A DNA stretch of 64,000 bases from Rhizobium aethiopicum (GTDB lineage Bacteria > Pseudomonadota > Alphaproteobacteria > Rhizobiales > Rhizobiaceae): the NCBI RefSeq assembly GCF_014197535.1, contig NZ_JACIFV010000024.1:1-64000 (forward strand). Direction: 5' to 3'. Numbering within the stretch: the stretch's first letter is position 1; every line of letters starts with the position of its first letter. The notes beneath the pieces are model-generated. The model did not search any database, was not told the origin of the DNA, and was given only the letters and a program-made list of their open reading frames with translations. The position numbers and the translations under genes are program-made. Positions 12,622 through 31,084 of this stretch are shown here, piece after piece.

Positions 12622-15090
12622 CTACGCCCCAGGCTTGTGACAAAGCCGATCGAGCGTGTCTCGAAGTGCGGCGGCGGCCTGATCGCGCTCATCGGTGGAC
12701 ATAAGCTCGGGCTCAGCTTCCAATCTCAGGTGCGGCAGTTCGGTCCGGACAGTACGACGGCTGCGGACCAGATTTTCCTTCAGATCGACCACGCGATAGG
12801 TGGCGACCGGATAGGCTATTCCCTTTACGAGGACATGCCCCAGTTCCTCACACTCGATCGTGTCCTTCACTTGCGCAAACGTCTCATAAGAAATGAGCAC
12901 GGTGCCCGGCGACGCTTCCTGCTCAAGGCGCGAGGCGAGATTCACGGCGCCGCCGATTATCGTGTAATCCATCCGGTCCTCGCTGCCGAAGTTGCCCACA
13001 GTGCAGTAGTCTGTGTGAATGCCGATGCGGCAGCGCAGCGGTGTTTCAATCCCGATATCGCGCCAGATTTCCCCAAGCTCGCTCATTCGCTTTTGCATGG
13101 CGAGAGCCATCTGCACGCAGGCGAGCGCGTCATCCTTGACGCCGCGGGTTTCCGGATCGCCGAAAAACATCAGGATGGCGTCTCCGACATACTTGTCGAT
13201 CGTCGCGCCGTGATCTGAAGCAATCTTCGACATTTCCGTCAGGTAGTGATTGAGGAGCTGTGTGAGATCCTCGGATTCCATTTTGTCTGTGGTTTCGGTA
13301 AAGCCGGCGATATCGGAGAAGCATATCGTCAGCTTCTTCCGCTGGCTGGCGATCCTGACGTCCTGGCGGCCGGTGAATATGGAGTTATACACCTGCGGCG
13401 CCAGGTATTTCGCCAGCTTGCTGGAAAGCGCCTCGAGAGCTGCGGATTTCTCGGCAAGGTTTTCCTCCCGTTGCTTCAGCTCGGTGATATCAGAGTAGAC
13501 GGCCACCGTGCCGCCACCCGTGATCCGCCGCTCGCTAATCATGATCCATCGCCCGTCGCGACGCCGCTGCACCCACGTTTCACCAGGGTTGCGATGCCGC
13601 GAAAGCCGCTCGGCAATCCACTCCTCGACTCGCCCCTCAGCATCCTTGATGTAGCCGCCCTCAGCGGACCGGCGAACAATCTGCTCGAATGTCGTGCCGG
13701 GTGTCATTTCCTCCAGGCCGGCGTACAACAGCTCGCGGTAGCGGCTATTGCTCAGCACGAGCCTGTCCTCGCCATCGTACAGAGCGAATCCTTCGGAGAT
13801 GCTCTCGATGGCATCCACAAGTCGCTGGCGCGCTTCCGCAACCTCGCGCAGGCTGTTTTCCTCCACCTCGACCGCAGTATCCCGGAACAGCCTGAGCGCC
13901 CCTGCCATGCGGCCGATTTCGTCGCGGCCTCCGACGGGCATCTGCGCTTGCAGATTGCCGCCCGCGATTGCCAGCATGCTTTGGCTCACCTCTCCCAGAC
14001 GGGCGAGAAGGCTGCGGTCGACATAGAGCCAGACAACCAGAACCGAACTCAGGAGGCTTAGAAGGGCGGAGCCAAGGACAATGCCGGTGCCGTAGCGCCG
14101 GACGACCGAGGCTTCGAGGGCGGACGCGGCGATCTCATGGTTTGCCTTTGCAACCAGGCGATCGACGGCCGCGGTAAGGTCGCGCGATAGTCGACTGTTT
14201 TCAGCCAGAAGCTGCTCGCCCTTTGCCAGGACAGCAAACTCGTCCTGTCGTACCTTCGGGATCGCGTTCTCACCGTCGGTCAGCGACTTTAACTCGTCCA
14301 ACCGTTGTTGGAAGCGGGTCCGCAACTTTTCATCGATCTCGGTGGAGACCGTTTCGAGTACGGCGAGCGACCGGCGCAGCGGAAACAGGATCAGCTTCAG
14401 ATCTCCCGGCGTACGCGCGTTGGCAGTCTTGACCAGCGCGTCGTTGACTGCTGAGATCTCCTGTTGCGCCCTCTGCTGGGGGATGTAGGCCGCGATTGCC
14501 TTGACCAGGTCGCTCGGCGCCGCAGCACGCGCGTCGGGTGGTGCGGCGGAATCAGTCGCCGCTGCACGCCACTGCGGGACCTTCGAGTTCATCACGGCGA
14601 TACCGGGCGCGATGAGACGCTGACTTGCATTTGTCGTATCCGATAAGCGGCGCAGCAACTCCTCCTTGCGCTGAACCATGGTAAGGCGAGCGGCGACAAG
14701 ATCGTCGAGAGCATCGAGGTTTCGTCGTAGACCAATCACCGCGTCTTCGATTTCAGTCACCGCCGTCGCGCTGACTGCGGTGCCTTTAAGTGCGGCGAGC
14801 AACTCTTCGAGACGCCCCATCTCGAGTCCGATCGCAGCCGAGACCTCGTTGTGCTGAACCGTGCTGGTCGCCGCCAGCACTGAGGGCGCGGTTGAGGCGA
14901 CCCTCTCAGCCTGGCGCGACAATTGGAGAGAGGCGAGCGCCGTCGGGACCCGTTCCTTGGTGATGCGATCGACCACGTCGCCGACCTGAAGGAAGGCATA
15001 GAGAGCTGCGGCGGTCGCGAGCACTGCGAAGGTGCTGATGCCGAAGAAAGCGAGCAACAAGCGCCCTCGTATGCCGACGCGTTCAAACAT
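12622..15090 (-). CDS. Membrane sensor adenylate/guanylate cyclase (HAMP-PAS-cyclase)
   Basis: The 822-residue protein has a first membrane helix at 11-34 and a long helical sensor region. A second helix follows at 335-357, then a HAMP linker at about 358-408, a PAS domain at about 423-540 ([20 protein letters not shown]), a coiled linker, and a class III cyclase domain at 584-770. The metal aspartates Asp593 ([11 protein letters not shown]) and Asp637 ([13 protein letters not shown]) are present. It should make cyclic nucleotide in response to a periplasmic or membrane signal. The extracytoplasmic part is all-helical, like chemoreceptor-type sensors. The branched-chain amino acid binding protein gene lies 83 bases upstream, and the three genes may form a unit. 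Confidence 0.92.
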
Positions 15091-16271: not shown

Positions 16272-16787
16272 GGTGAACCTCCTTCACAGCTTACGCCAAT
16301 TCTGTCCCCGCCGACAGCCCCTGCGCAGGCGCAGCTGCAGCGCGCTTGCCTCTTATCCGTATGGGCTGGTCAGCAGTTGACGTTCCTGCGGGTACCTCAT
16401 TGTCTGCTTTGGGCGAATCCCAGCCCTTGGCGGCAAGAACTTTGACGTCCGCTTTTCGTGTTGGGTTCCTAACAGCGCACTGCCGGCTTCCGGCCCAAAT
16501 CGGTCATTCCTTCTGCAGCCGAGCCGGCTGCTGATGCGCTTGCCGCCAAGCTGGCGCGGCAGCCCGCAAGTTCACGCCTAACTGCTTGTGGGAGTAGCTC
16601 CAGAGTCTCTGCATGGATCGTTTTGGATGCGTCTGCAGCCCCTGCGGTCAGCCCCGCTGGCAATTCGAGAACAGCTCCTACGCCTTTAGGTCAAAGCGTC
16701 TGTAACTAACGCCTCTGGCGCCTTGCAGCGGTTCAGGGCATCCTATGATGGCTGAAAGTTGTGTCTATGGCAGTTGGAGGAATGCCG
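16272..16787. repeat. Intergenic space with repeat copy (16425-16512)
   Basis: This 516-bp gap between divergent genes contains a copy of the repeat also seen at 3868-3960 (ggcggcaaga, ttttcgtgttggg, ccggcttccggccc, tcattccttc). No convincing coding frame was found. Promoters for the binding-protein gene (leftward) and the EF-G-like gene (rightward) must lie here but no clear box is recognised. Confidence 0.6.
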
Positions 16788-18749
16788 ATGCGTTGCTTTA
16801 CCGTTCTTGGACCCTCGCAGACTGGAAAATCAACAGTGGTCGAAAAGCTCGGCTCGTTGGAGGGAACGCCGAGAAAATCCAGCTCCCCTTATGGATTGAA
16901 CCTCACAGAATTCTCCTTTGGAAACGAGGCGTGGTGTGCGTTGGATGCGCCAGGACCCAACGAAGCGTTGGCGCATGTGCAGCACGCGCTTCTTGCCAGC
17001 GACGCCTGCATCCTGTGCGTTTCATCGGCACCCGAGGAGGCTGTGCTCGCCGCGCCCTATCTGCGGATAGTCGAAGCCTCGGGGACGCCGTGCATCCTCT
17101 TCGTCAACCGAATGGACGAACCGAGGGGGCGGCTGAGGGACGTGATCGCCGCGCTTCAAGATTACGCCAACCACTCGCTTTTGCTTCGCCAGATCCCGAT
17201 CCGCGAGGGAGACAGGATCATAGGCAGTTGCGATCTGATTTCGGAACGGGCGTGGCGCTACCGGGAAGGCCAGACTTCGGCGCTTATCGCAATCCCCGAA
17301 AGCGCCGCCGAGCGCGAGCACGAAGCGCGCAGCGAGCTCCTGGAACACCTGTCCGAATTCGATGACTGGCTTCTCGAGGAACTGGTCGAAGATCGCGAGC
17401 CGCCCAGCGACGCCCTCTATGCCATTTCATCGCGGATTCTCAGGGAAAACAGGATCATTCCAGTGCTGATCGGCGCCGCAAGTCACGGCAACGGCATGAT
17501 GAGGCTGATGAAAGCGCTGCGCCACGAGGCGCCGCCGGTAGGGATTCTCAGACAGCGCCTGGCTCGTGCGGGCAATGTCGATGAAAACAAGCTGACCGCC
17601 GTGAGCTTCCATGCCTATCATCGTCAGAATATCGGCAAGACTGTGCTCGTGCGCGCGTTTGGCGAGGGACTGCGGCAAGGCGCAGCACTGGGCGGCTCCG
17701 GCCTCGGCGCCGTGCAGGATCCTGCAAACGGACGGTCCAGCTCGGCGATCACGCCTGCACCCGGGGATGTCTTCGCAACAGTCAAGTCCGACCACTTGCC
17801 CGTCCCGTCGCTGTTGACATCAAACGCGACGGTCGCCCCGCCCGAATGGACCGAGCCACCAACGCCGATGCTTGAAAGAATCCTGGTCCCGGGCAGCGTA
17901 CGCGATGAAAACAAGCTCTCCGAAACGCTGGCAAAACTTTCCGAGACGGATCGCGGTCTTGTCGTTTTGCAGGAGGAAGGTACGGGCGCCCAGCTCGTCC
18001 GCGCCCAGGGCCCGGTACATCTGCGCGATCTCTGCCGAACCCTGTCCGACGTCTTCCACATCGACGTAACTGATCGAACGCCCAGCCCGATCTACCGCGA
18101 GACAATCGCGAAGCCGTCCGAGGTGCACTACCGGCATCGCAAACAGACCGGCGGCGCCGGGCAATTCGCGGATGTGAAGCTGAGCATTCGCCCCAACGAG
18201 CGCGGCCGGGGCTTCACCTTCAGCGAAACCGTCAAGGGTGGCGTCGTTCCGCGCAACTACATCCCTGCCGTCGAAGCAGGGGCGCGCGAAGCGATGGAGA
18301 AGGGGCCGCTCGGCTTCCAGGTCATCGATGTCGGCGTAACGCTGTTCGATGGTCAGCACCATGCCGTCGACAGTTCGGAACACGCCTTCAGGACTGCGTC
18401 GAGAATGGGAGTGCGACAGGCGCTTTCCGAAGGGTCGGCCGTTTTAATGCAACCGATCTTCCGCAGCGAAATTCACATTCCGTCGATCTATTCCGGCAGC
18501 CTCGTCCAGATCGTCTCCGCTCTCAAGGGTCAGGTTCTCGGCTTCGACCGGGATGAAACCGCCAAGGGATGGGACATCTTCCGGGCACTTGTTCCGGGCG
18601 GCGCACTTGACGATCTGGCGCGGGCGCTGCGCTCGGCGACGCAGGGCATTGGTTACTTTTCCAAGACCTTCGATCACTTCGAGGAGCTATACGGCAAGGA
18701 AGCGGACGCCATCGTGAGGGCACACGAGGAAACGGGCGGCGCACACTGA
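16788..18749 (+). CDS. EF-G-like translational GTPase paralogue
   Basis: ATG 16788 has GGAGG seven bases upstream; earlier GTG/ATG starts at 16761/16767 lack one. The 653-residue protein follows the EF-G domain plan. The GTPase has a P-loop GPSQTGKST, a G3-like DAPG, and NRMD in place of NKxD. Domain II is followed by the fourth domain (YRHRKQTGGAGQFADVKLSIRP) and the EF-G C-domain (IPSIYSGSLVQIVSALKGQVLGFDRDE). Effector-loop residues differ strongly from housekeeping EF-G, as in the EF-G-like clade of unknown role. It is not in a ribosomal operon here, so it is not the main fusA. Confidence 0.87.
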   Translation: MRCFTVLGPSQTGKSTVVEKLGSLEGTPRKSSSPYGLNLTEFSFGNEAWCALDAPGPNEALAHVQHALLASDACILCVSSAPEEAVLAAPYLRIVEASGTPCILFVNRMDEPRGRLRDVIAALQDYANHSLLLRQIPIREGDRIIGSCDLISERAWRYREGQTSALIAIPESAAEREHEARSELLEHLSEFDDWLLEELVEDREPPSDALYAISSRILRENRIIPVLIGAASHGNGMMRLMKALRHEAPPVGILRQRLARAGNVDENKLTAVSFHAYHRQNIGKTVLVRAFGEGLRQGAALGGSGLGAVQDPANGRSSSAITPAPGDVFATVKSDHLPVPSLLTSNATVAPPEWTEPPTPMLERILVPGSVRDENKLSETLAKLSETDRGLVVLQEEGTGAQLVRAQGPVHLRDLCRTLSDVFHIDVTDRTPSPIYRETIAKPSEVHYRHRKQTGGAGQFADVKLSIRPNERGRGFTFSETVKGGVVPRNYIPAVEAGAREAMEKGPLGFQVIDVGVTLFDGQHHAVDSSEHAFRTASRMGVRQALSEGSAVLMQPIFRSEIHIPSIYSGSLVQIVSALKGQVLGFDRDETAKGWDIFRALVPGGALDDLARALRSATQGIGYFSKTFDHFEELYGKEADAIVRAHEETGGAH

Positions 18750-21831: not shown

Positions 21832-22881
21832 TCACTTACCAGTTCCGTCTTGTTGCACAGCAGGAAACAACGAGTATTCCTTCGGTGTGATCCGTGTTGA
21901 CAAGACTCGCCCCGCTTTGGCCGGTGGCCCCAAAAGCGAAGACTGTGGTGAGGATTCCAGGAGGCTCTCGCCACGCAGAAGATTCAGCCAGGCCTGCGAC
22001 ACTTTCTCCCCGGCTGTGCCACCGAAGTGGCAATCGTCGTAGCGGTCGTCTCCATCGAGTAACGCGTCAGAATTGACGCCCTCTCGGATACCCTGGCCGC
22101 TTCTTGATAGGGCCAGTTGCGCCCGTACGATCGCATTGTCCGGAATGTGCTCCTTGAAGCCGCCGTTGCTCGGTTCCAGGCATTTCGATGCGATCGAAAT
22201 GTAAACGGGTGCTTCGACGCCGTTCTGACGTAATGTGTCGACCATCGACAGGAAACGTTCCTGATAGGCCTCCCCGGTGGTGCCGTGAACGAGGTCCGCC
22301 TCTCCTTGCACCCAGAGGACGCTCGTTACCCGATAACCGGAATCGTGAAGCTGTGTCACTGTATCGACCAGCATAGGATTGAGGTCCCCGCCTGGCGCCC
22401 ATCGTGCGACCTGAGATCCGGAATATGCGAGAGGTGCGAGGATGACGCTGTCGTTTTGTCCCGATTCGATCAATTTGTTCCCGAGAAGCGTCCAGTACTC
22501 TCCCCTGGTATCGGTCGATCCAAGAAGTGGCGATGCCGCGATGAAGCACCGTTTGTCAAAGGCGTTTACAACGCGCGCGCCATAATTTGACCGGTACCGT
22601 TGTCCGCCGTGGTTGGCCGCGTTCGATTGGCCAAGAATGAGCAAGACAGCAGTTCGATCAGTTTGAGCAGGGCAGGTCACAAGCGTTTTCGATTCATCCC
22701 CGATGAGTCGTTGCTTGTCGTCGAAAGTATAACGGCTTGGAGCCGCAGCCTTCTCTCCGACAACCATTTTCTTCATCGCGGAAAGTTCTGGCCAGGGAAA
22801 GATCTCATGTCTCGCGCTCATGCCGCCGAGAAAGTACATTGCGATCACGGCGGCCCCGCCGACTGCTAGCATTGTACGCAT
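21832..22881 (-). CDS. Exported SASA/CE6-like carbohydrate esterase
   Basis: The 349-residue protein has an N-terminal hydrophobic segment (residues 5-20) for export or anchoring, then an SGNH-type esterase of the sialate-O-acetylesterase-like (SASA) class. The nucleophile block is LLILGQSNAANHG, the oxyanion/Glu block WVQGEADLVHG, and the Asp-His pair is in YDDCHFGG. It probably removes acetyl groups from a surface or plant polysaccharide. The last ~20 residues (from about VLSTRITPKEYS) run through a dispersed DNA repeat that has another copy at 24536-24606, so the natural C-terminus may have been replaced. Confidence 0.87.
   Translation of the reverse strand: MRTMLAVGGAAVIAMYFLGGMSARHEIFPWPELSAMKKMVVGEKAAAPSRYTFDDKQRLIGDESKTLVTCPAQTDRTAVLLILGQSNAANHGGQRYRSNYGARVVNAFDKRCFIAASPLLGSTDTRGEYWTLLGNKLIESGQNDSVILAPLAYSGSQVARWAPGGDLNPMLVDTVTQLHDSGYRVTSVLWVQGEADLVHGTTGEAYQERFLSMVDTLRQNGVEAPVYISIASKCLEPSNGGFKEHIPDNAIVRAQLALSRSGQGIREGVNSDALLDGDDRYDDCHFGGTAGEKVSQAWLNLLRGESLLESSPQSSLLGPPAKAGRVLSTRITPKEYSLFPAVQQDGTGK
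21842..21912. repeat. Dispersed repeat copy 1 (partner at 24536-24606)
   Basis: Conserved blocks shared with 24536-24606 include GATCCGTGTTG, CAAGACT-GCCCCG and CAGGAAA-CA-G. The two copies are roughly three-quarters identical by eye. This copy encodes the tail of the SASA esterase on the minus strand. Confidence 0.6.
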
Positions 22882-25242: not shown

Positions 25243-28200
25243 TCAAGTCGGTGTCAACAGGGTCGCGCCGGTCGGCGCATTGGGGTCTGCCCAGCGACGG
25301 ATAGTGCCGGTGCCCAAATCGGCACCGTAAAGCCAGCCGTCAGGTCCCTTCTGAATGTCTACCAGATAGGGGACGCCCGTATCGAAGACCTGTACGTTCG
25401 AGATCTGCCGGCTTGCGTTCATCGTTGCGGTGTAGACATTGCCATTGACAAGATCCGCAAACATCAGGGTGTTGTCGTTGTAGAAGTCCCCGACGGTGAT
25501 CGCAGTGGCGTTGTCGGGCGAACCGTGGCTTCTCGATAGCAGCGGAAAAACAGCAGGCTGATCAGAAGGGCTGTTTCGGTTCCCATTGTTGTAGAAGCTG
25601 ATCGCTTGAGGGAGATCCTGGTAGCCGCCCGTTCGGCCGGGACCTTCCAGATACGGCCAACCGAAATTCGATCCTGCAGGGCCGGTATTTATTTCCTCCC
25701 AAGTGGTCCAGCCGACATCTCCGAGCACGGGCAGGTTGGTCACTGGATCGAAGGTGAAGCGATAGGCGTTGCGCACGCCCGAATAGAATACCTTGGACTG
25801 ATTGCTGTTCGGATCTGCGGGGTCATAGAAGGGGTTCCCCGGAACGCCCGCGCCGGTCATCGGATCTATCCTCAGGACTTTGCCGGACAGATTGTGAACG
25901 TCTTGAGCGCGAACCGTGCGAGGGTCCATGAAATTGTATGAGGTGCCGTCTCCGTTGCTGAAGTACAGCATGCCGTCGGGCCCGAAATGGAGTGCTCCAT
26001 TGGAATGGGAGTCACTGTCCGTCGCCAGATAGTCCCGAATATTCTGGTTCTGAATTCCGGCGCGATCTGGATCGTTGTCCTGCGTTCCCACCTCGATCTG
26101 GCTTGCAGGGGCGGTAATGGTGGTGCCGTTGACGATGCCGGACGGCGGTATGTTCACAGCGCCGGTACTGTCGAGATCCGGACGGCTGGTGTATGCCCAG
26201 GTGCTGTTGGTACCGGCCAGCACGACCATGCTGGCCGGATCGGCAATCATCGTGTTGGGATTGACCGTAAGCCGAACGAGGCGCGAAGGACGGTTCCCTT
26301 TGGTATCCGGTCCCGCCAGGCCGGTTCCATTCGCGGTTTCCGGGGGATCGTAAGTGTAGAGCAGATAGACGTATGGATTTGCCGCGAAGTTCGGATGAAT
26401 TGCCAGCCCCAGCATCCCCCGATCTCCGGGCGTATAGTTGACCTGGCTGGACAGATCGACAAGCGGTGTCGATCGCAGCGTGCCGTTGTCCACCACCCGC
26501 ACAATGCCATTCTGTTGCGCGACAACCATATAGCGGCCATCGGGAGTCCAATCGAGGGCCGTTGGCTCGGTCAAGCCGGACACGACGGTCTGTCGGACCA
26601 GATTGCCGAGGTTGCTGTCGTCGTCCAGGATGTTGACGGTCGCAGTCGTTTGGCTCCCCAGGACAGCACCTGTCGGGTTGCTCAAGGTTAAAGTGAAGCT
26701 TTCGTTGCTCTCGGCCGCCGTGTTGTTGAGCAGCGGAACAGAAATGGTCTGGATCGCTTGCCCTGCGGCAAAGGTGAGCACGCCCGTTGTTGTCATATAA
26801 TCGGAGCCCGCGATCGCGCTGCCATTGCTCGTTGCATATGCGACGGTGGCCGTGGCATCGATGTTTCCACTGCGCTGAACCGTGATGGTGGCGGCGGCGG
26901 CCGCCTCCGACAAGGTGATGACCGGATTGTTCAGGGAGATGGTCGGTGCGGAATCGTTGTCGACGATGGAGACCAGAACAGTCCGCGGCGCTGCCAGGGA
27001 GCCACCAGGTCCGGGATTCTGGATGCCGACAGAAAATGTCTCGGTCCCTTCGGCATCAGGATCATTGACGATCGGGATGGCAAACGTCTTGCTGCTCTCG
27101 CCGTCCTCGAAAACAACTTGCCCGGTATTGGCTCGGCCATTGAAGGTCGGCAACGTATAGTCCGCTCCAGCCTGTGCCGCTCCGGCTCCGCCGATCTCGT
27201 TGGTCGTGTACTCCAGTGTCAGCTGTCCGCTCGTACTGCCTGTGCGAACGACGGTGATTGTTGCAGCGCCCGCTGTTTCACTGACGTAGATGGTGGCGTT
27301 GTCCCGCAAGGCAACGCTTGATCCAGCAGAGAAGACGACGTCGCGGAAGTAGTTTTCGTTCTGGTAGACGAGGGCTGGAAACGTGCCGATGGTTTCGTTG
27401 TAGACACCGGCGCCGACCGGGGCGGTCAATCCGCCATTGCTGATCGGGTTGGCGAAGCCGTTCGAGGTCAGCGAATAGTAGCTGTTGGCATTGACCGAGA
27501 CGACATAGGTGGTGCCGGCATTGATGACCAGCGGGCTTGCCAAAGTCTGTTGCTGCCAGCCCGAGGCCGTCTCGTTGGTGAAGGTGACGCTTGCCAGCTG
27601 CTGCCCGGTAGCCGACCAGATGCGGCCGACATGCGTGCCGGTCTCGCTGGGAGACTTGTAATAGCGGACCGCCTGGATCGAACCGGTATTGCTGCTGACG
27701 AAGCGCATCCCGACTTCCCAGTCCACTCCAGGCCCGTCGGTGAAGTTGGGTTGGGCCGGTGTCTGGGTGGTGAAGAGGCTGACGGGGCTGGAGCTTACTG
27801 AGGTAATGGGCGCAGTCGCCGCGCTCACGACGGTCTCGCCAGTGCCACGCAGGTCGGTATAGGTGGCATTCACCCGCACGCGCTTGCCGACGAGACTGCT
27901 GCCGAGGGTCAGGCTTTGCCCGCCGGCGACGTCACTCCACGTAGTGCCGTTGTCGCTGCTCTGCCACAGGTAGCTGACGCTTGCCGGCAGGCCATCGATG
28001 TCACTGAGGCTGGCGGTCAAGGTCTGGCCTTGGCTCGCTATGCCAGTGATCGAGATCACGCCGGGATCATTGACATTGGCGACTGCCGAGGGCGTCGCCG
28101 GGCTGGTGACATTCTCGCTGTTGCCCAGATTGTCGATGTAACTGGCCGTTGCCCGCACGAAATTGCCGACCTGGGCCTGCTGCAGGGTCAGCGTCTTGGC

Positions 28201-30573
28201 AGTCGCTCCGCCGATATTGCTCCAGGTGGTGCCGTTGCTGCTCTGCTGCCACTGATAGGTCACCGATCCCGGCACACCGTCCGCGTCGGTGACGGCGGCC
28301 GTCAACACCTGACCTTGCGTCGCGGTCCCGGTGATGCCAAGCACACCCGGGTGGTTGTCGGGATTCGCCGCCGCAGCAGAAAACACGACATCACGGAAGT
28401 AGTTTTCGTTCTGGTAGACAAGGGTTGGAAACGTGCCGATGGTTTCGTTGTAGACACCGGCGCCGACCGGGGCGGTCAATCCGCCATTGCTGATTGGGTT
28501 GGCAAAGCCGTTCGAGGTCACCGAATAGTAGCTGTTGGCATTGACCGAGACGACATAGGTGGTGCCGGCATTGATGACCAGCGGACTTGCCAAAGTCTGC
28601 TGCTGCCAGCCTGAGGCCGTCTCATTGGTGAAGGTGACGCTTGCCAGCTGCTGCCCGGTAGCCGACCAGATGCGGCCGACATGCGTGCCGGTCTCGCTGG
28701 GAGACTTGTAATAGCGGACCGCCTGGATCGAACCGGTATTGCTGCTGACGAAGCGCATCCCGACTTCCCAGTCCACTCCAGGTCCGTCGGTGAAGTTGGG
28801 TTGGGCCGGTGTCTGGGTGGTGAAGAGGCTGACGGGGCTGGAACTTACTGAGGTAATCGGGGCAGTCGCCGCGCTTACGACGGTCTCGCCAGTGCCACGC
28901 AGGTCGGTATAAGTGGCATTCACCCGCACGCGCTTGCCGACAAGACTGCTGCTCAAAGTCAGGCTTTGCCCACCCGCGACGTCACTCCACGTAGTGCCGT
29001 TGTCGCTGCTCTGCCACAGGTAGCTGACGCTTGCCGGCAGGCCATCGATGTCACTCAGGCTGGCGGTCAAGGTCTGGCCTTGGCTCGCTATGCCACTGAT
29101 CGAGATCACGCCGGGATCATTGACATTGGCGACTGCCGAGGGCGTCGCCGGGCTGGTGACATTCTCGCTGTTGCCCAGATTGTCGATGTAACTGGCCGTT
29201 GCCCGCACGAAATTGCCGACCTGGGCCTGCTGCAGGGTCAGCGTCTTGGCAGTCGCTCCGCCGATATTGCTCCAGGTGGTGCCGCTGCTGCTCTGCTGCC
29301 ACTGATAGGTCACCGATCCCGGCACGCCGTCCGCGTCGGTAACAGCGGCCGTCAACACCTGACCTTGCGTCGCGGTCCCGCTGATGCCAAGCACACCCGG
29401 GTGGTTGTTGGCGCTGACAATCGCTGCGGTCGGCGCGCTCGCCCGGTTGGTTTCGATACCACCCAGCTGATCGGTGTAAGTGGTCCTCACACGGACTTGC
29501 CTGCCCACCTGCGCCGCCTGGAGTGTCCAGTTCGGACCGGTGGCTCCGGCGATGTCGGTCCATGTCGTCCCGATCAGCTGCTGCCAGCGATAGGTGATCG
29601 ACACGTTGGCGAGCCCATCGAGGTCGGTAACGGCCGCGGTCAGGGCTTGGCCTTGAACCGGCGTACCGGTGATCGTCGCCACGCCTATGTCGTTCAGGTT
29701 GGCGACTGCCGTCGTCGGACCGCTGGCGACCGTCTCGTTGTTCCCAAGGGCATCGGTGTAGGTGGCGGTCGCTCGAACCTGCTTCCCAACCAGTGCTTGC
29801 TGCAGGCTGAGTGTTTTCGCAGTGGCACCGGCAATGTTGCCCCACGTGCCGCCGCCATCGCTGCTTTGCTGCCATTGGTAAGCGACGATGGTCCCGGTCG
29901 GGAGCCCGTCGACATCGGTAACACCAGCCGCGATCGTCCGATTTTGAGTTGCGGCCCCGATGATGGAAACGACGCCAAGGTCGTTGCCGGCAGGATTACT
30001 CGCGACGATCGGGGACGTGGCCAGGCTGGTTCGATTGTTTTCGGTTCCTCCCGACTGATCTTTATAGGTTACCTGGACGCGGACTTGCCTGCCGACCTGC
30101 GCTGCCTGAAGTGTCCACGTTGAACTGGTGGCGCCCGCGATGTTGCTCCAGGTGGTTCCGATCAGTTGCTGCCAACGATATGTGATCGACACGTTGGCGA
30201 GCCCATCCGGTTCCGAGACCGCGGCGGTCAGGGCTTGGCCTTGTAGGGGTGTACCGGTGATCGTGACGACGCCGATATCGTTCACGTTGGCGACGGCGGC
30301 ATTGTTGGTGCTGGCAACCAGTTCCTGGTTACCCAAAGCATCGGTGTAAGCAGCGGTTGCCCGCACCCGCTTCCCGACTTGGGCTTGCTGCAAGGTCAGG
30401 GAGGCTGTGGCTGCACCTGTTATGTTGCTCCATGTGGCACCGTTATCGCTGCTCTGCTGCCACTGATAGGTAATGACCGTCCCCGATGGTAACCCGTCAA
30501 CATCCGTGACGTTTGCCGCCAAAGTCTGATCTTGAGTCAGAGTCCCGCTGAGAGAAACAACGCCCTGCGCCAT
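25243..30573 (-). CDS. Giant secreted-type protein: 8 Ig-like repeats, 2 DUF4082, 2 Calx-beta, PQQ-dependent sugar dehydrogenase
   Basis: ATG 30573 (GGAGG seven bases upstream; a GTG lies one codon earlier) gives 1,776 residues. Six Ig-like repeats of ~90 residues (each starting like GVVxIxG and containing YQWQQSSDxGxTW) lead into a DUF4082 domain (about 582-733). Two more repeats and a second DUF4082 (about 932-1083) follow. Two Calx-beta domains come next (about 1088-1318), then a glucose/sorbosone-dehydrogenase-like beta-propeller (about 1320-1776: DRGMLGLAIHPNF, LHFGPDGMLYFSNGDG, NFGWPYLEG). There is no N-terminal signal peptide, so a non-Sec route such as type I secretion is plausible. 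The dehydrogenase would oxidise a sugar in the matrix or on host polysaccharide, with the repeats acting as an adhesive stalk. Confidence 0.9.
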   Translation of the reverse strand: MAQGVVSLSGTLTQDQTLAANVTDVDGLPSGTVITYQWQQSSDNGATWSNITGAATASLTLQQAQVGKRVRATAAYTDALGNQELVASTNNAAVANVNDIGVVTITGTPLQGQALTAAVSEPDGLANVSITYRWQQLIGTTWSNIAGATSSTWTLQAAQVGRQVRVQVTYKDQSGGTENNRTSLATSPIVASNPAGNDLGVVSIIGAATQNRTIAAGVTDVDGLPTGTIVAYQWQQSSDGGGTWGNIAGATAKTLSLQQALVGKQVRATATYTDALGNNETVASGPTTAVANLNDIGVATITGTPVQGQALTAAVTDLDGLANVSITYRWQQLIGTTWTDIAGATGPNWTLQAAQVGRQVRVRTTYTDQLGGIETNRASAPTAAIVSANNHPGVLGISGTATQGQVLTAAVTDADGVPGSVTYQWQQSSSGTTWSNIGGATAKTLTLQQAQVGNFVRATASYIDNLGNSENVTSPATPSAVANVNDPGVISISGIASQGQTLTASLSDIDGLPASVSYLWQSSDNGTTWSDVAGGQSLTLSSSLVGKRVRVNATYTDLRGTGETVVSAATAPITSVSSSPVSLFTTQTPAQPNFTDGPGVDWEVGMRFVSSNTGSIQAVRYYKSPSETGTHVGRIWSATGQQLASVTFTNETASGWQQQTLASPLVINAGTTYVVSVNANSYYSVTSNGFANPISNGGLTAPVGAGVYNETIGTFPTLVYQNENYFRDVVFSAAAANPDNHPGVLGITGTATQGQVLTAAVTDADGVPGSVTYQWQQSSNGTTWSNIGGATAKTLTLQQAQVGNFVRATASYIDNLGNSENVTSPATPSAVANVNDPGVISITGIASQGQTLTASLSDIDGLPASVSYLWQSSDNGTTWSDVAGGQSLTLGSSLVGKRVRVNATYTDLRGTGETVVSAATAPITSVSSSPVSLFTTQTPAQPNFTDGPGVDWEVGMRFVSSNTGSIQAVRYYKSPSETGTHVGRIWSATGQQLASVTFTNETASGWQQQTLASPLVINAGTTYVVSVNANSYYSLTSNGFANPISNGGLTAPVGAGVYNETIGTFPALVYQNENYFRDVVFSAGSSVALRDNATIYVSETAGAATITVVRTGSTSGQLTLEYTTNEIGGAGAAQAGADYTLPTFNGRANTGQVVFEDGESSKTFAIPIVNDPDAEGTETFSVGIQNPGPGGSLAAPRTVLVSIVDNDSAPTISLNNPVITLSEAAAAATITVQRSGNIDATATVAYATSNGSAIAGSDYMTTTGVLTFAAGQAIQTISVPLLNNTAAESNESFTLTLSNPTGAVLGSQTTATVNILDDDSNLGNLVRQTVVSGLTEPTALDWTPDGRYMVVAQQNGIVRVVDNGTLRSTPLVDLSSQVNYTPGDRGMLGLAIHPNFAANPYVYLLYTYDPPETANGTGLAGPDTKGNRPSRLVRLTVNPNTMIADPASMVVLAGTNSTWAYTSRPDLDSTGAVNIPPSGIVNGTTITAPASQIEVGTQDNDPDRAGIQNQNIRDYLATDSDSHSNGALHFGPDGMLYFSNGDGTSYNFMDPRTVRAQDVHNLSGKVLRIDPMTGAGVPGNPFYDPADPNSNQSKVFYSGVRNAYRFTFDPVTNLPVLGDVGWTTWEEINTGPAGSNFGWPYLEGPGRTGGYQDLPQAISFYNNGNRNSPSDQPAVFPLLSRSHGSPDNATAITVGDFYNDNTLMFADLVNGNVYTATMNASRQISNVQVFDTGVPYLVDIQKGPDGWLYGADLGTGTIRRWADPNAPTGATLLTPT
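27325..29408. repeat. 1,050-bp tandem duplication inside the giant gene
   Basis: Bases 27325-28358 and 28375-29408 are nearly identical at an exact offset of 1,050 bases (350 codons). Each unit encodes two Ig-like repeats plus one DUF4082 domain. Only scattered, mostly silent differences are visible, so the duplication is recent or kept similar by recombination. Confidence 0.9.
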
Positions 30574-31084
30574 CACGCTACCTCCGCATCAACCTGTCGA
30601 TGTTGCCTGCTAAGTCGTCGAGGCGTGGCCGCAGGAGTCCAGTGTCCCGCATTTCCCCACGCGCGCTGAACTCCACTGGGCGGACTATGCTCCGATCCTT
30701 TGGACTTTCCAATTAGCTCTTTATGGGTAGAATTCTGTCACTCCTCACACGTCCTGAGTGCGCTGGAGCTCAGTTGCAGGCTGGCAAATGGATGCGGACG
30801 ACGCGGCTTTTGTCACTCTGTGCGCCAATGAAGTCGAGGCTTTCGTGGCTCTGCTGCGTGGCCGGCAAGTGCCATGTCGATCGCGCGCGTTTCCTGAGCA
30901 AGGACTAGCGAAGAGTGCACGCGGCAAGGCGCAGGGCAGGGCGGCGCCTTTCGCTGTCGTTCCCCAAGGATCTGCCCTTAGCGTGATCGGCCAAGGCCAT
31001 GGATTCCAGGCGCAAGGCCTGGAATCACGGAGAGTGGGGGTGCGTCTCGGCCGAACTCGCAGCCCGCGCACCGCAAGAGCGTCT
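30574..31084. repeat. Intergenic space with dispersed motif (30998-31033)
   Basis: The 511-bp gap holds one copy of the ttccagg...cctggaa motif at 31003-31024. The upstream part should contain the promoter of the giant gene, but no clear box is seen. Open frames here look like chance. Confidence 0.5.

Follow-up and report, generated by a model that had tools for sequence, protein, structure and literature searches.

Does a giant Rhizobium protein that joins a long adhesion-type stalk to a sugar-dehydrogenase-type domain carry a PQQ-dependent enzyme, and how would a protein of this size leave the cell? The question is raised by a gene in a 64,000-nucleotide stretch of Rhizobium aethiopicum DNA (the window; contig NZ_JACIFV010000024.1, positions 1 to 64,000), for which a sequence-only reading had proposed an enzyme that oxidises polysaccharide from the end of an adhesive stalk.

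Coding sequence and domain layout

The open frame comprises 1,781 codons from stop to stop and has two candidate start codons, GTG and, at the end coordinate of the sequence-only reading, ATG (Table 1). The spacing to the upstream GGAGG favours the ATG. An in-frame TGA at 30591-30589, read from the sequence ahead of the start codon, excludes an upstream signal peptide, and no Sec signal can be read in the protein itself (184 kDa, pI 4.4, 0.8% Lys), which is acidic and Cys-free; the earlier view that a signal peptide is absent is thus borne out. The frame is not chance, since R. sophoriradicis holds an intact frame of the same length and dN/dS over propeller plus stalk is 0.11-0.18 among three Rhizobium copies.

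Pfam matches on the protein comprise two DUF4082 (1.3e-81), two Calx-beta (8e-40) and one GSDH domain (9.5e-32), with weaker matches to Ig/PKD models across the N-terminal part. The GSDH (PF07995) profile scores 111 bits against a cut-off of 25, which places the C-terminal domain in that family. Frame and domains on the minus strand confirm the proposed giant Ig/DUF4082/Calx-beta protein with a sugar-dehydrogenase-type C-terminus, and the first propeller residue, 1322, agrees with the ∼1,320 residues of repeats claimed for it. An Ig + DUF4082 unit is repeated 1050 bp apart (27324 and 28374; 96% over 300 nt). In the Rhizobium genome G009 the copy has a single DUF4082, and its open frame spans 1,432 codons, compared with 1,781 in the window (both stop to stop), a difference in stalk length of roughly one such unit.

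Table 1. Coordinates of the giant gene and its parts in the window
Feature	Position	Strand	Basis or remark
Whole coding sequence	25243..30576	-	1777 codons from GTG; 1776 from ATG at 30573
GGAGG, ribosome-binding-site-like	30581..30585	-	Read from sequence; 7 nt before ATG
N-terminal Ig/PKD-like repeats, residues 1-583	28828..30576	-	Outer limits from DUF4082 start
DUF4082 copy 1, residues 584-733	28378..28827	-	Pfam
Ig-like repeats separating DUF4082 copies, residues 734-933	27778..28377	-	Pfam
DUF4082 copy 2, residues 934-1083	27328..27777	-	Pfam; within 1050-bp repeat unit
Calx-beta copy 1, residues ~1094-1207	26956..27297	-	Pfam; approximate limits
Calx-beta copy 2, residues 1206-1320	26617..26961	-	Pfam
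GSDH (PF07995) six-bladed propeller, residues 1322-1777	25246..26613	-	Pfam, model, structure matches
His1524 (domain H203), aligned with sGDH His144, kept	26005..26007	-	Alignments
Arg1602-Asn1603 (domain R281-N282), aligned with sGDH Arg228-Asn229, kept	25768..25773	-	Alignments
Tyr1737-Leu-Val1739, site of Arg-x-Arg in ordinary GSDHs	25360..25368	-	Alignments

Selection was compared between the two parts of the protein. Over six comparisons dN/dS was 0.07-0.15 for the propeller and 0.16-0.32 for the stalk, the propeller being lower in all six, of which the sixth (window versus L052) is rough, with dS > 1; for the propeller, the three Rhizobium pairs gave 0.11-0.15 and the two Bradyrhizobium pairs 0.07-0.10. 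The propeller is under purifying selection, and by this sequence measure the head is a working part. Broken copies also occur: a gene in two overlapping frames in G093, a genome from another family of the order (L038:3652-9101), and a 187-aa C-terminal remnant in B. hereditatis (L070:7926-8486).

Fold and pocket of the propeller

A propeller model built from 32 sequences reached a pLDDT of 81 and a pTM of 0.86; the 25 close sequences alone gave a pLDDT of 65, which rose to 81 when seven distant rows were added. The model matches 3a9g (VIA Z 40.7, rmsd 2.0 over 320 residues) and 2ism (VIA Z 40.5). HHIP propellers also rank high among the matches (Z 27.3-32.0, the top one being heparin-bound 7pgm at 32.0), and AA12 fungal pyranose dehydrogenase follows with Z 30.9 (6h7t) and 28.8 (6jt5). 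As modelled, the propeller has the sGDH/Asd fold, with loops 137-156, 168-194 and 200-202, beside the pocket His, of poor quality.

Pocket residues were counted over 61 aligned rows, namely 25 close, 24 other Rhizobiales GSDH and 11 distant rows, and L038, which was put in no group as its frame is broken ahead of the tested columns. L035 (split frames), the remnant L070, L078-L081 (N-terminal part unmatched) and the same-gene duplicates L001 and L007-L012 were left out. The columns for His144 and Arg228-Asn229 were set by counting along the sGDH alignment. Those for Arg-x-Arg, which we take to be Arg406 and Arg408 in sGDH numbering, were taken from the motif in L043, the short GSDH encoded in this genome, which as a control aligns with the same motif in five solved structures (7cdy, 2g8s, 2ism, 3a9g and 3das; the entry title of 3das describes a PQQ-bound form). 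No alignment of sGDH itself covers this part, and when the family is aligned directly with Asd, the score across it is weak (9.5 bits).

Loss of PQQ and calcium ligands from the propeller had been named as grounds for rejecting the proposed enzyme, and such loss is found in part: the counterparts of His144 and Arg228-Asn229 and the Gly-Trp-Pro calcium loop are kept in 25/25 close rows, but Arg-x-Arg is gone from every one of them. Arg stands at neither column in any close row, the first being occupied by Gly (10), Tyr (8) or Phe (7) and the second by Val (24) or Ala (1). The motif is complete in 21 of the 24 other Rhizobiales rows, L043 included; L028 is truncated at the site, and L013 and L014 are without it. 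Both arginines occur together in none of the 11 distant rows (L039-L041, L069, L071-L077), so that the loss marks a group wider than the close family. Gln occupies the His144 column in 14/24 of the other Rhizobiales rows. A pattern opposite to that of the window protein is seen in the short GSDHs of 13 Rhizobium-genus genomes (L043:7390-8580, L021-L025, L027, L029-L032, L034, L036), which keep Arg-x-Arg and carry Gln at the position of the sGDH catalytic His144.

The available text of one study names Arg408 and Lys377 as PQQ-binding in sGDH and describes PQQ in AA12 enzymes as bound by a partly different residue set (PMC6881789). Lys377 was considered as an argument against PQQ and dropped, Lys being found there in just 15/24 control rows. 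Two residues that are invariant in alignment A1, R65 and H363, might compensate for the lost PQQ ligands. From the aligned residues, PQQ use by the propeller is doubtful because Arg-x-Arg has been lost, but not impossible because AA12 binds the cofactor with a different set.

PQQ supply in host genomes

No match to pqqB or pqqC was found in the window's genome or in G009, while G093 has strong matches to both. Across 25 host genomes, several of which are drafts, pqqC scored over the cut-off in 10, all of them Bradyrhizobium (10/10 searched, of 11 such hosts, that of L054 being left out). The four Rhizobium hosts gave no match, none of ten cyanobacterial hosts passed the cut-off (one weak match, 55.6 bits versus a cut-off of 240), and the same holds for the single planctomycete host. 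It is possible that hosts scavenge PQQ. With the anchoring motif missing from all close relatives and neither biosynthesis gene matched in this genome, PQQ-dependent oxidation as originally put forward is not supported.

Domain partners, distribution and history

A Pfam scan of 11 relatives (four of ten cyanobacterial, three rhizobial, the rest relatives at 42-49%) found Calx-beta together with GSDH in every protein, 12/12 when the window protein is counted. Calx-beta directly precedes the propeller in 10/11, a legume lectin intervening in L069. Among the cyanobacterial proteins, DUF4347 is combined with a legume lectin (L058), with CBM6 and CBM35 (L064) or with a C-terminal C-type lectin (L061), and L049, a contig-end fragment, has a malectin match. 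The three rhizobial proteins carry DUF4082 and Ig-type models, and the 42-49% relatives carry CBM60, RTX, cadherin, Ig or legume lectin domains. A polysaccharide- or glycan-facing role seems reasonable from this sequence context, mainly because some relatives join the head to lectins or CBMs; no result points to the root or a biofilm matrix as its site. A literature search returned no paper joining sorbosone dehydrogenase with Calx-beta, and none joining a PQQ-dependent sugar dehydrogenase with type I secretion.

Queried with the propeller, 2/60 genomes of the genus have close copies, the own genome and G009 (96%). A search of 40 genomes from the order's other families yielded a copy at 79% in G093, where it is broken into two frames, and more distant ones, at 42-43%, in G074, G080 and G094. 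A scan of a species-genome collection by a method that finds close relatives, in which a missing locus is not proof of absence, yielded 36 loci: R. sophoriradicis and R. esperanzae at 96-97%, Bradyrhizobium at 71-76% (remnant L070 counted) and cyanobacteria at 68-76%, below which the next matches are at 45% or less. In the tree, the rows from Rhizobium, Bradyrhizobium and G093 group together (100/98). When rooted, the rhizobial rows lie beside Pseudanabaena inside a paraphyletic cyanobacterial set (93/91); a single cyanobacterial clade survives the test (p-AU 0.075), and with the outgroup removed the rhizobial and cyanobacterial sets part at one branch. Transfer between phyla, in either direction, appears likely because 68-76% identity is seen in an accessory exoprotein.

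All seven gene-less Rhizobium regions, chosen by their match to the right flank, retain it (about 31.6-34.6 kb), and a piece of the left flank is present in one of the seven within the sequence fetched; R. sophoriradicis is also without the window's left flank. The gene thus lies at the edge of a variable stretch. A plasmid origin was rejected, no plasmid record among the 53 with a match having an identity of at least 60%. Near the gene, a short stretch at 30985-31070 matches many Rhizobium genome sites and is perhaps a dispersed intergenic repeat. A 661-aa EF-G-like GTPase (16764-18749, plus strand; EFG_IV, EFG_C, GTP_EFTU, EFG_III) is encoded in the window, and such a gene is found near the propeller gene in G009 and R. 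esperanzae as well. A SASA (sialic-acid-type acetylesterase) domain is encoded at 21835-22881 on the minus strand, a possible glycan-modifying neighbour.

Route of export

The lack of a Sec signal, the acidity and the absence of Cys are features of type I substrates. The RTX-like or C-terminal secretion signals that the sequence-only reading had proposed to look for did not appear: the window protein has no Pfam match to RTX repeats, which are present in the distant relative L039, and no ending like that of neighbouring cargo. A search for HlyD-type genes (TIGR01843) gave 32 matches in the genome, 4 over the cut-off, with 0/32 on the window's 104-kb contig. As far as tested, the gene does stand apart from secretion genes as first described, and the four HlyD-type genes over the cut-off supply the type I candidates looked for elsewhere in the genome.

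One of these HlyD-type genes lies beside an ABC exporter, recognised by an LSGGQ motif read from the sequence, followed by a CobW-like gene and two DUF4082 giants of 1,655 and 1,434 aa. In R. leguminosarum, according to the text available from PMC2275737, pRL90159 and pRL90161 are very large, have ∼140-aa repeats and no classical RTX domain, and lie just upstream of bltDE. Their repeat may well be DUF4082, because its length and the layout of the present locus match. DUF4082 giants are found near BltD/BltE-like genes in 8/9 regions (this genome and Bradyrhizobium among them); in G093, BltD/BltE-like genes are present and no DUF4082 was found beside them. On this pattern DUF4082, a domain with no assigned function, would be a component of surface proteins that leave by type I systems. 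Two genes for CobW-like GTPases, so named from their sequence (L042:7447-8679 and 13430-15034), are interspersed with the DUF4082 genes and the BltDE-like exporter; they recur in G009 and G034 and could supply metal to exported proteins.

In Bradyrhizobium, an HlyD-like gene is located 1.5-6.8 kb past the propeller gene in 9/11 loci, with an ABC gene as well in 8; L055 and L048 have no HlyD-like gene within about 5 and 8 kb, respectively. This adjacent pair is nearest to L131 of the present genome (ABC 58-61%, HlyD 52-54% in most pairings) and is only about 25% identical to BltDE in the ABC component (34% for a partial L053 copy); we call it PrsDE-like, a label given here without comparison to PrsDE. 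An exporter pair also lies about 120 bp from the gene of L040, a relative at 43%. A dedicated propeller exporter in this position is weakened as a candidate by the exporter's own cargo-like protein, which ends in DFHFA, since propeller proteins end otherwise. DUF4082 proteins adjacent to BltDE-like genes have no DFHFA-type ending either. In 4/5 Bradyrhizobium regions (L053, L056, L067, L068) the contig of the BltDE-like exporter equals in length that of the propeller gene, which would place the two about 31-38 kb from each other. The presence of BltD was discarded as a discriminator, BltD-like exporters being found in 3/3 checked Rhizobium genomes without a close copy (G034, G012, G026). Type I export is our best guess for the giant protein, and we think a BltDE-like exporter likelier than a PrsDE-like one.

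Function of the head and alternative explanations

Taken together, the balance tips modestly towards an exoprotein without a leader, exported by a type I system and interacting with glycans, its propeller being something other than a standard PQQ dehydrogenase. Such a protein would leave through a type I secretion system and act on glycans outside the cell; the Ig/DUF4082 part would be a stalk of variable length, and Calx-beta plus the GSDH-fold propeller a conserved head module, to which lectins or CBMs are joined in some other lineages. The former active-site pocket of the head would hold a sugar-type ligand, to be bound or acted on without standard PQQ anchoring. A purely ligand-binding, HHIP-like head without catalysis, which overlaps this explanation as both binding and catalysis are allowed there, is a serious though less favoured option: the HHIP propellers, heparin-bound 7pgm included, match the model, lectins or CBMs are partners in some relatives and Arg-x-Arg is lost, whereas the pocket His, Arg and Asn are invariant in all close rows, beyond the needs of a bare scaffold.

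An active PQQ/Ca2+-dependent sugar dehydrogenase on an adhesive stalk, taking PQQ from the surroundings if its host makes none, is unlikely. The loss of Arg-x-Arg throughout the close family, the lack of pqqB and pqqC matches in the window's genome and pqqC over the cut-off in 0/14 Rhizobium and cyanobacterial hosts weigh more than the GSDH fold, the kept His, Arg-Asn and Gly-Trp-Pro, purifying selection, pqqC in the searched Bradyrhizobium hosts and the AA12 precedent for other PQQ ligands (in the text available from PMC6881789). Less probable still is a cytoplasmic or useless acquired gene that has no working exporter in Rhizobium; the contig without an HlyD-type gene, the missing RTX and cargo-like C-terminus and the broken copies in G093 and L070 would fit, but not the low dN/dS over propeller and stalk in three Rhizobium copies or the equal-length intact frame in R. 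sophoriradicis.

More broadly, and tentatively, these proteins could form a distinct class of exported GSDH propellers, coupled to Calx-beta and often to glycan-binding modules, which would dispense with PQQ (in favour of a different cofactor, of metal hydrolase/lactonase chemistry or of ligand binding alone) and would have passed between cyanobacteria and root-nodule bacteria, the latter having a DUF4082/Ig stalk at the place of the lectin/CBM part. Family-based annotation labels such domains PQQ sugar dehydrogenases, several database matches here included; if the clade is PQQ-free, many secreted proteins annotated as 'dehydrogenases' may be of another kind, and cyanobacteria and legume symbionts would have in common a glycan-facing module that is directly testable. 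For the window protein, we conclude that a conserved GSDH-fold head with an altered PQQ pocket is probably exported on a variable adhesive stalk.

Comparison with known systems

The window head resembles sGDH (1cru/1c9u) and the Asds (2g8s, 2ism, 3a9g, 3das) in its six-bladed fold, His, Arg-Asn and Gly-Trp-Pro; unlike them, the protein has no C-terminal-side Arg-x-Arg and no Sec signal, and carries a stalk of ∼1,320 residues. The HHIP propeller, compared here by its fold, shares a GSDH-like architecture and has other partner domains. The AA12 enzymes (6h7t, 6jt5) are likewise GSDH-type in fold, and the available text of PMC6881789 describes PQQ held without a Lys377 counterpart and Arg430 and Arg621 as conserved with sGDH and Asd; Arg621 would be the 406-type arginine that is absent from the window's bacterial family. 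As for pRL90159 and pRL90161, these adjoin exporter genes, unlike the window gene, and a GSDH propeller goes unmentioned in the portion of PMC2275737 available; together with bltDE, they show a layout similar to that of the DUF4082/exporter locus of this genome.
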